Source: a virus
Reading direction: 5' to 3' (one strand)
Virus record (IMG/VR): IMGVR_UViG_3300022841_000022
Span: 1-49,826 of that record
DNA: 49,826 nt
The notes beneath the pieces were generated by a model. The model saw nothing but the letters and a program-made list of their open reading frames with translations. It searched no databases and was not told where the DNA came from. The translations under genes were made by a program, and so were the position numbers. Positions 30,356 through 38,236 of this stretch are shown here, piece by piece; positions within the stretch are counted from its first letter, which is position 1; each line of letters opens with the position of its first letter.

Positions 30356-30979
30356 ATGAAGAAGACACAAAAACACACAAACAAACTACAAACCTCAAAA
30401 AATACGGGTGCTGCCGTCAAGTCAATAACAGACAGGGATAAACTGATCATTGATAACTATTTAGAGACTTTTAACAAGTCAAGGAGTGTTATGGATGTAA
30501 TGCCAGAGATGAAGCACCAAAGCCAAGCCAACCACCTGTTTACCGCCATATGGGATAAGAAGGAGGTACAAACATACATCAAGGAGCGAAGATCATACCT
30601 AACAAGCCAACGGCCAGGCTTAACAATTTACGAGGTAGCGCAGGAACTACAGAATCAAGCTTATAACGATGTCACAGAGGTACTAGCATGTAAGACCGAG
30701 GAAGAGCTCAAAGACTTACCAGCAAGCACGCGTAGACTTATACAAGATTACAAGATTACAGAGCGAACAGAGACAGACAGAGCAGGAAACCAGATTAAAA
30801 CTAAAGATTTCACCTTTAAATTTGTAAATAAATTAGATGCACTAAAGGAATATAACAAAGTTACTGGCATGTATGCAATCGATAATAGCCAAAAACAAAG
30901 CAATATAGACTTATCAAAGCTAGATCCTTCCTTACAATTAGCATTACTTAAGGCATTTGAACTGCAAAAAGATAGTTAG
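30356..30979 (+). CDS. terS: Terminase small subunit
   Basis: A 207-residue DNA-recognition subunit of the packaging motor. The N-terminal part contains DRDKLIIDNYLETFNKSRSV, a helix-turn-helix-like region, then LTSQRPGLTIYEVAQELQNQ, the oligomerisation region typical of Bacteroidetes TerS proteins. The C-terminal region (KLDALKEYNKVTGMY) matches the conserved end that precedes a short tail. It is first in the rightward cluster. Its codons favour C-ending forms (ATC, ACC, GCC) unlike the T/A-ending codons of neighbours, and its sense strand is T-poor. No other TerS candidate is present. Confidence 0.82.
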   Translation: MKKTQKHTNKLQTSKNTGAAVKSITDRDKLIIDNYLETFNKSRSVMDVMPEMKHQSQANHLFTAIWDKKEVQTYIKERRSYLTSQRPGLTIYEVAQELQNQAYNDVTEVLACKTEEELKDLPASTRRLIQDYKITERTETDRAGNQIKTKDFTFKFVNKLDALKEYNKVTGMYAIDNSQKQSNIDLSKLDPSLQLALLKAFELQKDS

Positions 30980-31242
30980 ATTACATAATCCGCAACAACC
31001 GACCGAGCCAGTACACGAATAACGCAATAAAAAGTACAAAATACACACAATAAAGCAAAGTAAGACCCAAAACAACACAAAACAACACAACAAACAGAAC
31101 CAACACACACAAACAAAGATCCAAAGCATGACGAACGAAGGGAAAGAGGACATACCCCACCCTGAAACGTGGGAGAGCGAGCGTCTTCACCCCCACACAT
31201 TAATTTTTTTTCTTTTCCCAATTTCATATCGTTTTTTTTTAT

Positions 31243-31289: not shown

Positions 31290-31320
31290 CCCAATCTATT
31301 TATTTAGGTTGGGTTTTTTT
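31290..31320 (+). terminator. Intrinsic terminator
   Basis: CCCAATC (31290-31296) pairs with GGTTGGG (31307-31313), including one G-U pair, with a 10-base loop and seven T residues following. It would end transcripts from terS or the promoter at 31243. Confidence 0.8.
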
Positions 31321-31372
31321 GTATTCTGAAAAATTTTTTGGGTTACTTGTAGGATTGTTGGTGTAAAAGTAA

Positions 31373-31380
31373 TATATTTG
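31373..31380 (+). promoter_or_regulatory. Rightward promoter for candidate ncRNA
   Basis: TATATTTG matches TAnnTTTG. The expected start site, about 5-8 bases downstream, falls right at the 5' end of a 10-bp terminal stem (31393). Confidence 0.6.
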
Positions 31381-31392
31381 TGATTATTATAT

Positions 31393-31586
31393 AAGTTCTT
31401 TGCTTGAAGATAAACGATAACGTGTTCTAATGTCGCGAGTGATGCAAGTTAAATTCTTGTGGTTATCAAACTGTATCAGCAGTTGTGTTTATTGTAGAGG
31501 TATTGATGACCATAACAAAACTTAATCACGCATAAGGTCAAAGGAGATGTGAGGTATTCCATAACTGAAATTTGGACAAAGAACTT
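31393..31586 (+). ncRNA. Candidate structured RNA, about 194 nt
   Basis: The ends pair perfectly over 10 bp: AAGTTCTTTG (31393-31402) with CAAAGAACTT (31577-31586). Inside are GATAAC/GTTATC (31416-31421 with 31462-31467), the nested hairpin GCAAG/CTTGT (31444-31460), AACTG/CAGTT (31469-31484) and CTTA/TAAG. A promoter sits just upstream, and the base composition is higher in GC than flanking spacers. Length and closed ends recall 6S-type RNAs, but I cannot identify a family. A 31-codon frame overlaps it. Confidence 0.55.
31430..31525 (+). CDS. Possible 31-residue peptide with CxxxCxxC motif
   Basis: ATG at 31430 opens a short frame containing NCISSCVYCRG and ending DDHNKT. CxxxCxxC is the iron-sulfur motif of radical SAM enzymes, but the peptide is far too short to be one. 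It could be a leader peptide, a gene fragment or chance. The overlapping RNA structure is the competing explanation. Confidence 0.2.
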   Translation: MSRVMQVKFLWLSNCISSCVYCRGIDDHNKT

Positions 31587-31613
31587 TTAAATTAACAATT
31601 AAATATAAATAAG

Positions 31614-31793
31614 ATGAGTAAAGATTTGAAAAAAGTAGAGGAAGTAAAAGATCTATTAAGTGAAGAGCAAAAAAGAGCGTTAGGTGTTTTAATTCAAGCA
31701 GTTAAGATTGCAACAACAAAAGGTTGTTTTGAATTAGATGATGCGGTTGTTATTGGTAATGCAAAAAACTTTTTAGAAGAACTAACAAAATAA
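31614..31793 (+). CDS. Small acidic/basic helical protein
   Basis: A 59-residue product (MSKDLKKVEEVKDLLSEEQK start, NFLEELTK end), two helices. It is the first protein gene after the candidate RNA and lies three bases before the next start. Function unknown. Confidence 0.6.
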   Translation: MSKDLKKVEEVKDLLSEEQKRALGVLIQAVKIATTKGCFELDDAVVIGNAKNFLEELTK

Positions 31794-36727: not shown

Positions 36728-38236
36728 ATGAATAACGATATTAGTCAACTACTTAACACATTAGATCCTTTGTCATTGAGAATTAATCTTTTCAAGCAAG
36801 GGGTTTTTGATTTTATTGTAGAAGGTGTTGCTGCTAATAGCGAAGGTGATTTTCAAGAAGGTAAAAACGCTTCACACGAAAAACAACGTAGAGCCTTAGA
36901 GATATTAACAGACAATGAGCATGATGAGTTTTTATATGGAGGTGCAGCAGGAGGTGCTAAGTCTTGGACAGGTGCTTCTTGGTTAGTATTTGCTTGCTTG
37001 GCATATCCTGACACTAATTGGTTTATTGCACGTAACCAATTAAAAGATTTATTAGATTCTGTATTGAAAACAATAAACAAAGTTTGTAAAGAATACGATA
37101 TTGAAGATTACAATTTTAATGCACAAAAAAATTACATTAAGTTTGGAAACGGAAGCGTTATTAATTTTATAGAGGTAAAGTACAAGCCATCAGATCCAAT
37201 GTATGAAGATTTAGGTTCAACAGAATACACAGGTGGATGGATAGAGGAGATTGGTGAGGTTCACGAAATGGCTGCTATTGTTTTAGGCACAAGGATTGGA
37301 AGACACTTAAATTCAAAATACGGATTAAAGAAAAAAATGTTTATGACCTGTAACCCTAAACAGAATTGGGGTAAAATTAAATTTTACGATAAGCATAAGA
37401 ACGGAAGTCTTTATGAAGAGAATAAAATATTAATGGACAATGGTAGAAAAAGGATTCAAAGAATATACTTAAACTGTCTTGTTGTAGAAAACCCTTTCAT
37501 TGAGCAAGATTACATTGATGGATTAATGGCAAAAGCATTAGACCATAAACCTACTTTTGAAAGGCTTTTTAAAGGTAATTGGGATTATGAGGACAATCCA
37601 TATCAATTAGCGGAACAGGAAATGATTGAAGCAATTTACAACAATGACCATGTTTCTAAAACAAAAGTAAAAGGATATATTACTGCGGATATTGCAGGTC
37701 AAGGTAGTGATAAAGCGGTCATTGGGTATTGGAAAGGGTGGGAATTAGTAGAAATTGTTGAGTTTGATAAATCTACTGCATCTGAATTAATAAATGCAAT
37801 TAAAGTATTAAGGTTTAAATACAGAGTTCCTCAACATAGAGTGGTTGTAGATGCAGATGGTTTAGGATGGGGTGTTGTTTCGTCTATCGGAGCAAAGTCT
37901 TTTAAAAACAACGCACAAGCAATTAAAGTAGGTAAAGAAGTGCCTAATTACAAAAACCTACAGACACAATGTCTTTATTTAGTTGCTGATAAGATAAATC
38001 AAGGGGAACTATATATAAGTGCTGATTTAAGTACAGACCAAAAACAATACATTAATCAAGAATTGGCACAAATACAAGCAAAAGGAGACCATGACCCTGA
38101 AAAGAAACTAGAATGTAAGGGTAAAGCACAAATAAAGCAAGACATAGGTCGTTCTCCAGATTATAGAGATATGATATTTATGAGAGTATTTTTTGATTTA
38201 AAGAAAACTATAAGTTTAGTTACTAATTGGAGTTAA
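36728..38236 (+). CDS. terL: Terminase large subunit
   Basis: The 502-residue packaging ATPase/nuclease. The Walker A-like loop GGAAGGAKSW is at residues 71-80, the Walker B-like GGWIEEIGEV is at 169-178 (Glu173/174), and the coupling motif FMTCNPKQNW is at about 205-214. The RNase H-like nuclease domain begins with ITADIAGQGSDKAV (Asp321), followed by VVVDADGLG (Asp375/Asp377). All motor and nuclease elements are present, so the gene looks intact. Confidence 0.96.
   Translation: MNNDISQLLNTLDPLSLRINLFKQGVFDFIVEGVAANSEGDFQEGKNASHEKQRRALEILTDNEHDEFLYGGAAGGAKSWTGASWLVFACLAYPDTNWFIARNQLKDLLDSVLKTINKVCKEYDIEDYNFNAQKNYIKFGNGSVINFIEVKYKPSDPMYEDLGSTEYTGGWIEEIGEVHEMAAIVLGTRIGRHLNSKYGLKKKMFMTCNPKQNWGKIKFYDKHKNGSLYEENKILMDNGRKRIQRIYLNCLVVENPFIEQDYIDGLMAKALDHKPTFERLFKGNWDYEDNPYQLAEQEMIEAIYNNDHVSKTKVKGYITADIAGQGSDKAVIGYWKGWELVEIVEFDKSTASELINAIKVLRFKYRVPQHRVVVDADGLGWGVVSSIGAKSFKNNAQAIKVGKEVPNYKNLQTQCLYLVADKINQGELYISADLSTDQKQYINQELAQIQAKGDHDPEKKLECKGKAQIKQDIGRSPDYRDMIFMRVFFDLKKTISLVTNWS

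Follow-up and report, generated by a model that had tools for sequence, protein, structure and literature searches.

Comparative evidence for a phage RNA family with a conserved hub and exchangeable arms

The window, that is the whole stretch of DNA analyzed here, comprises 49,826 nucleotides of viral origin (positions 1 to 49,826 of IMG/VR record IMGVR_UViG_3300022841_000022). The RNA described below lies between its small (30356-30979) and large (36728-38236) terminase subunit genes, the product of the latter being 73% identical to the large terminase of Polaribacter phages P12002L and P12002S, the closest named relatives. The original prediction of a compact structured RNA rested in part on a perfect 10-bp terminal stem, and this stem (AAGTTCTTTG / CAAAGAACTT) is present exactly as claimed when window positions 31393-31402 and 31577-31586 are read against each other. 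A U-rich stretch follows directly 3' of the stem (31586). The putative promoter box upstream, TATATTTG (31373-31380), fits the Bacteroidota -7 consensus, TAnnTTTG, and is accompanied by an imperfect -33 element (TTG at 31355-31357 or 31347-31349). A similar box follows the small terminase gene of P12002L, but without such an RNA. The sequence CGACCGAGC is found shortly after the small terminase gene in both the window (31000-31008) and P12002L (L098 827-835; L numbers denote loci throughout) and is possibly a packaging or termination site.

Folded as a single sequence, the segment reaches -44.8 kcal/mol (z -2.14; 4 of 200 shuffles as good), a fold energy only modestly better than chance. Since single-sequence folding was mildly unusual at most, comparison with relatives was needed. 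When named phages were searched by blastn, three Cellulophaga phages, phi4:1, phi17:2 and phi14:2, shared a short core with the window (31468-31503). A 25-mer at the heart of this core has exact matches in 32 IMG/VR stretches, and an 18-mer inside it in 66. The first alignment comprised 33 copies and yielded the covariance model R1. Applied to 96 sources, most of them chosen because they contain a piece of the core, R1 gave 87 matches at E <= 1, of which 80 also reach E <= 1e-8. When the whole records of 50 carriers were searched with R1, 44 had one match and six had two. A blast hit in Polaribacter phage Leef_1, located in a 43-nt gap between genes, was judged a probable chance match.

A search with RNA family models and a check for covariation had both been proposed: no Rfam 15 family matches the window at its gathering score (at 31300-31700 a single unrelated match, E 3.9, appears when the threshold is relaxed to E 5), and covariation was found in 51 related copies. 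No paper describing the RNA was found in the literature searched, which consisted of open-licence papers. We conclude that this is a new RNA family, absent from Rfam 15, of a kind already known, the stand-alone phage RNAs.

Table 1. Features of the structured RNA and its surroundings (window coordinates)
Feature	Position	Strand	Remarks
Putative -7 promoter box TATATTTG	31373-31380	+	12 nt before the RNA; read in the sequence
Structured RNA, whole (P1 to P1')	31393-31586	+	Match to model R1, 167.3 bits (the window is one of the 33 sequences used to build R1)
P1, 5' strand	31393-31402	+	Pairs with 31577-31586; 97.5% of cells paired, 10 of 10 pairs with changes on both sides, 51 copies
P1b, 5' strand	31403-31405	+	Pairs with 31497-31499; outer pair A-U in 23, C-G in 21 and U-A in 1 of 51
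Pa, 5' strand AUAAAC	31410-31415	+	Pairs with 31487-31492; 99.7% of cells paired, U-A to C-G in 3 copies
P2 arm, hypervariable cassette	31416-31467	+	Closing pairs 31416-31421 / 31462-31467
P3 hairpin AACUG-UAUCAG-CAGUU	31469-31484	+	99.2% paired; 2 pairs with changes on both sides
Pa, 3' strand GUUUAU	31487-31492	+	Structure count, 51 copies
P1b, 3' strand	31497-31499	+	Structure count, 51 copies
P4 arm, hypervariable cassette	31500-31557	+	Closing pairs 31500-31504 / 31553-31557
P5 hairpin beside P1'	31558-31576	+	4 of 4 pairs with changes on both sides
P1, 3' strand	31577-31586	+	Followed by a U-rich stretch

In the consensus fold (Table 1), the closing stem P1 encloses a P1b-Pa helix that ends in a three-way junction with P2 and P3, followed by P4 and by the hairpin P5, which adjoins P1. 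Comparison of the 51 copies supports the compact, discrete RNA of ~190 nt with a closing stem that had been predicted. The nested stems drawn from the single sequence fared less well: the interior is indeed structured, but most of those stems differ from the conserved ones (31410-31415/31487-31492 and 31416-31421/31462-31467). P1 varies freely, including wholesale replacement in L014, L015 and L058, and Pa is nearly invariant across the 51 copies. P1b and Pa are joined by a GAAG/UGUA internal loop, which in the sequence of phi14:2 can be read as a continuous helix. The 5-bp stem of P3 is kept despite replacement in L072 and others, and the 4 bp of P5 are formed by several pair types across copies. 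The G-U pairs of the helices are consistent with the RNA being the + strand.

As far as aligned sequences can show, the comparative evidence for this structure is decisive. Changes on both sides were seen in 15 of 31 pairs of the first structure (33 copies), with 0 of 500 shuffles as high. The refined structure was scored on alignment A2, in which 51 copies were fitted to R1 (P1, Pa, P2, P3, P5), with P1b and the loop contact, which are not in R1, added; here 25 of 38 pairs changed on both sides, and on all five measures 0 of 500 shuffles did as well. Cells with both-side changes numbered 165 versus 67.3 in shuffles (51 copies), and the 89.4% of cells paired in the refined structure dropped to 36-55% (at most 55.1%) when partners were slid. 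A strict tree-based null, which is conservative, retained only two pairs at E <= 0.05, and eight of its ten best-scoring column pairs belong to the proposed structure. The script behind it selected the P2 register, the 5' strand of P5 and the P5 loop motif sequence by sequence, using complementarity or motif, so that its counts for P2, P5 and the loops lean toward the structure; eight rows of odd length were left out, as were L012, L030 and L007. Thermodynamic folding recovered P1 and P3 in most copies, Pa at a probability above 0.5 in 16 of 51 and P1b in 5 of 51. Because of this poor recovery of Pa and P1b, the hub may need either the loop contact, which is outside the scope of such folding, or a protein.

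The loop contact in question joins P3 and P5. In the window, UCAG in the P3 loop (31476-31479) is complementary to CUGA in the P5 loop (31565-31568); taken more broadly, UAUCAG faces CUGA(A/U)A with complementarity over 4-6 bases, and 98.0% of the loop-loop cells are paired in the 51 copies. The sole clean compensatory change is in L085 (UUAG with CUAA), L087 and the second copy of L034 have altered, rearranged loop sequences that keep the complementarity, and L007 breaks it. The complementarity, together with the one clean compensatory copy and the two rearranged ones, strongly suggests that pairing of the two loops, UCAG with CUGA, locks the hub. P5 (4 bp), the contact (4-6 bp) and P3 (5 bp) could then be stacked as a rod, about as long as P1b, the internal loop and Pa combined (13 layers); with lengths matching in this way, the hub would consist of two parallel rods with P2 leaving from one end and P4 from the other. 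The second base of J2 (31494) is further associated with the fifth base of the P5 loop (31569), G occurring with CUGAAA in 33 of 40 rows and C with CUGAUA in 6 of 40, which may reflect either a tertiary contact or shared descent.

Carriers include the crAss-like Cellulophaga phage phi14:2 and the Lightbulbvirus phi4:1, which are placed in different groups by their records; judged by these matches, the RNA family is carried by unrelated phages. It belongs to phages of Flavobacteriia, and perhaps of other Bacteroidota too. In bacteria the RNA is rare. An exact 20-mer was found in one stretch of the genome_contigs collection, from a Lutibacter metagenome-assembled genome (MAG), and the same MAG was the one positive both among 395 genomes of one bacterial order and in a phylum sample of 395 genomes, which overlaps the order sample and was filtered more strictly. 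A large terminase gene (named from sequence) adjoins the RNA on the contig of this MAG. No match was found in the plasmid records searched, in the first 7 kb of P12002L and P12002S (a stretch that includes the slot occupied in the window), or in the stretches of phi10:1, Versailles and cr112_1 searched, which are partial genomes. Partial and degenerate copies were also seen. In L106 a second, degenerate tandem copy (~1400-1570) lies behind the first (1127-1345); it retains the P3 core and a P5-like hairpin, and its P1 has diverged. L108 has a solitary 5' half of the hub (950-1053; P1 5' strand, J1 and Pa 5' strand), the rest of the RNA being absent, directly before a possible gene start. Such a half would be a remnant or a re-used leader; similar cases occur in L084, L089 and L093, L108 being the one that was read.

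The position at the start of the late region, pointed out in the original prediction, is not general, and neighbour genes differ among copies. The most common neighbour gene family is present in 6 loci only, and no PHROG occurs in more than 3 of the 121 neighbour ORFs scanned (of 156 listed). A cis-leader role or an operon partner was rejected, as there is no common neighbour gene. The RNA's direction is shared by 125 of the 156 neighbour ORFs; at some loci the RNA follows an OmpA-domain gene and at others it lies among unrelated genes, and some copies stand immediately behind a gene. In L014, L016, L042 and L053 a tRNA gene flanks the RNA on either side, 1-5 nt from the ends of the model match, and for these copies tRNA processing would give discrete RNA ends. 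They belong to a minority: a tRNA lies within 500 nt in 6 of 53 copies, according to an ARAGORN script, which overlooks some tRNA-like sequences that inspection reveals upstream of L034 and L073. The RNA had also been credited with its own promoter, which is plausible in the window and not general, since 8 of 53 copies have a TAnnTTTG box whose end lies 0-25 nt upstream of P1 (~1 expected, the motif being present in 2.1% of random 33-nt windows). Given this count and the varied contexts, most copies are probably made within longer transcripts.

Some of the surrounding stretches contain other RNA genes. L014 and L017 combine tRNA arrays with the RNA, a GOLLD RNA overlapping a tRNA match, and tmRNA in one stretch. 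In phi14:2 a phage tmRNA with the tag GSSVQKLAMVA was predicted by ARAGORN (L002 4031-4500), ~2.5 kb from the RNA. Hypothetical proteins are annotated over the RNA in phi14:2 (L002 1321-1434) and phi4:1 (L003 3941-4099), and in the RefSeq copy of phi14:2 a feature there is marked as removed. The ORFs annotated there (phi14:2 gp003, phi4:1 gp168) are probably not genes.

The P2 and P4 arms are hypervariable, with 43 P2 and 47 P4 arm types among 68 copies (L072, which did not parse, was left out of the arm comparison). A closing helix of at least 4 bp is formed in 29 of 40 P2 types and 41 of 45 P4 types, and mean closing helices are 4.92 (P2) and 5.36 (P4), versus 3.08 and 3.87 with shuffled partners. 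The sister loci L078 and L081 have 95.8% identical upstream and 98.0% identical downstream flanks and 100% identical P4 arms, and their P2 arms are 49% identical, the background median for arm identity being 52%. The P2 arm of L081 is identical to that of both copies in another record (L079 and L103b), without upstream similarity; L103b and L081 share 138 similar bases downstream, and L079 and L103b themselves combine identical P2 arms with 39% identity in P4. L019 and L038, with flanks at 88.3% and 88.7%, likewise have 100% identical P4 and 37% identical P2 arms, and L019, L021 and L038 share P4 and the downstream flank while having three different P2 arms. Between phi14:2 and phi4:1 the P2 arm is 91% identical and 372 bases downstream match at 94.6%. 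From such alignments, it is apparent that arms are exchanged between phages as cassettes. The P2 arm of the window is shared, at 94% identity, with L013 alone, a locus that is otherwise dissimilar, and has no meaningful relative among named phages.

The content of the arms provides some indication of constraint. When the P2 arms of L063 and L073 are compared, differences fall on 19 of 46 paired positions and on 7 of 45 unpaired ones; 9 of 23 pairs are compensatory with none broken. By this sequence criterion (preserved pairs, and fewer changes among unpaired bases), at least one arm type is under selection as a fold. No motifs common to arms were found beyond those in shuffled arms. The longest matches and complements of the window's arms to the window are 12 nt, with shuffled arms reaching 14-15 nt, and a role of the arms as guides to the phage's own genome was rejected on these grounds. 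It could be that arm swapping follows simply from recombination between short identical hub segments, without selection on arm content. Nevertheless, we consider a hub with selected, exchangeable arms probable. To our knowledge, based on a non-exhaustive search, paired and swappable arms of this kind have no described parallel.

Several known kinds of RNA share features with this family. 6S RNA is a single rod with a central bubble mimicking an open promoter; it binds RNA polymerase and templates product RNAs. On account of its size and closed ends, the RNA had been likened to 6S-type inhibitors of RNA polymerase, and it does share with 6S and 6S-Flavo a similar size class and paired 5' and 3' ends. 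In contrast to the 6S rod, the conserved fold is a multi-branched hub (P1, P1b-Pa with P2 and P3, P4, P5) with a loop-loop contact. There is no Rfam match, and 6S-Flavo (RF01685) was detected in none of the 48 phage records carrying the RNA and not at the window locus up to E 5, versus 11 of 20 host-order genomes matching at E <= 0.01, below the curated cut-off, in the control. We consider the 6S reading very unlikely. A short coding gene for a 31-codon peptide (31430-31525) has a negligible chance of being correct: the frame is open in the window and 7 of 50 distinct copies have an ATG frame of at least 25 codons through the hub in the peptide frame, but 43 of 50 do not, so that this alternative, named along with the original prediction, fails, and conservation follows base pairs. 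ARAGORN finds no tRNA or tmRNA in the window, and Rfam no match. Retron ncRNAs (msr-msd) have short inverted ends and variable inner hairpins, as does the RNA here, but an RVT_1 reverse transcriptase was found in 0 of 48 carrier records (control positive in 3 of 14 genomes), and this candidate was rejected. The RNA might also be a riboswitch-like leader acting in cis on the next gene, as a 59-codon ORF starts 28 nt after P1' in the window and L018 and L073 have ORFs of one family beginning 1 and 13 nt beyond the match; with downstream genes differing between phages and a tRNA at 1-5 nt in several copies, this is very improbable. Hardly better placed is a packaging RNA made beside terminase genes and acting in DNA packaging. 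The phi29-type pRNA has a closing stem, junctions and complementary loops, all of which recur here, and the window copy lies between terminase subunit genes and the L037 copy near a large terminase gene. Against this, the RNA appears not to be tied to packaging genes, showing no general terminase neighbourhood, the relatives P12002L and P12002S have no match in their first 7 kb, and there is no Rfam match; we regard such a role as very unlikely.

An RNA-only assembly like those of GOLLD and ROOL, with P3 and P5 loops pairing between molecules, is unlikely as well. GOLLD and ROOL are described as phage RNAs (ROOL also of prophages) of unknown function, often near tRNA islands (PMC12286853). Like GOLLD (RF02032), the RNA is phage-encoded, stand-alone and structured, with a conserved and a variable region; some copies lie inside tRNA arrays, and the loop complementarity is compatible with pairing in trans. 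However, its ~190 nt are far below the size of GOLLD, many members of which exceed 800 nt (PMC12286853), and it carries two variable arms on a small invariant hub. ROOL is a large nanocage-forming RNA, and when the window was searched with Rfam neither family gave a sequence or model match. L014 and L017 contain GOLLD as a separate RNA, more than 6 kb away, so that it is not replaced by the one described here. The length match of the stacked rods would also favour pairing within one molecule. We hold it similarly improbable that the RNA is a selfish or hitch-hiking element spread among phages by recombination without benefit to the phage. Unrelated carriers, variable insertion sites and cassette exchange would fit such an element, but there is usually one copy per record (44 of 50), no associated mobility gene was seen, no reverse transcriptase is present in the 48 records, and the hub is under strong constraint.

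The constant fold, changing neighbours, tRNA-like excision sites and lack of a conserved frame (7 of 50) argue that the RNA acts in trans, and almost certainly this is a real, structured, trans-acting RNA family. What it does is addressed more tentatively. We propose, with slightly more doubt than confidence, a stand-alone trans-acting RNA of ~190 nt in which an invariant hub serves one partner and exchangeable arms serve variable targets. The hub (P1; P1b and Pa via the GAAG/UGUA loop; P3; P5) would bind one partner common to all these hosts or phages, probably a protein or ribonucleoprotein. An invariant hub would imply one constant partner, and cassette arms either variable partners or loose constraint; variable partners may be favoured, given that the fold and the loops of one arm type at least are conserved. 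The arms would be exchangeable payloads meeting variable targets, as decoys or base-pairing segments, and arm swapping would allow the RNA to be retuned, whether to the host, to its defences or to competing phages. That the arms are aimed at host or competitor targets is possible, with doubt clearly prevailing, and the full picture of a modular, retargetable phage RNA, whose kissing-loop hub sits on a conserved partner and whose two traded arms act against host-defence or competitor targets, is somewhat unlikely.

The known families of stand-alone phage RNA are few, and the most familiar of them, GOLLD and ROOL, are still without a function (PMC12286853). The RNA described here is small, usually single-copy and present in cultured phages (Cellulophaga phi14:2, phi4:1 and phi17:2), and its naturally swapped arms on a fixed hub offer a handle for testing function in laboratory phages. 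If the proposal is true, the RNA would serve in phage-host conflict as a natural RNA display scaffold with two slots.
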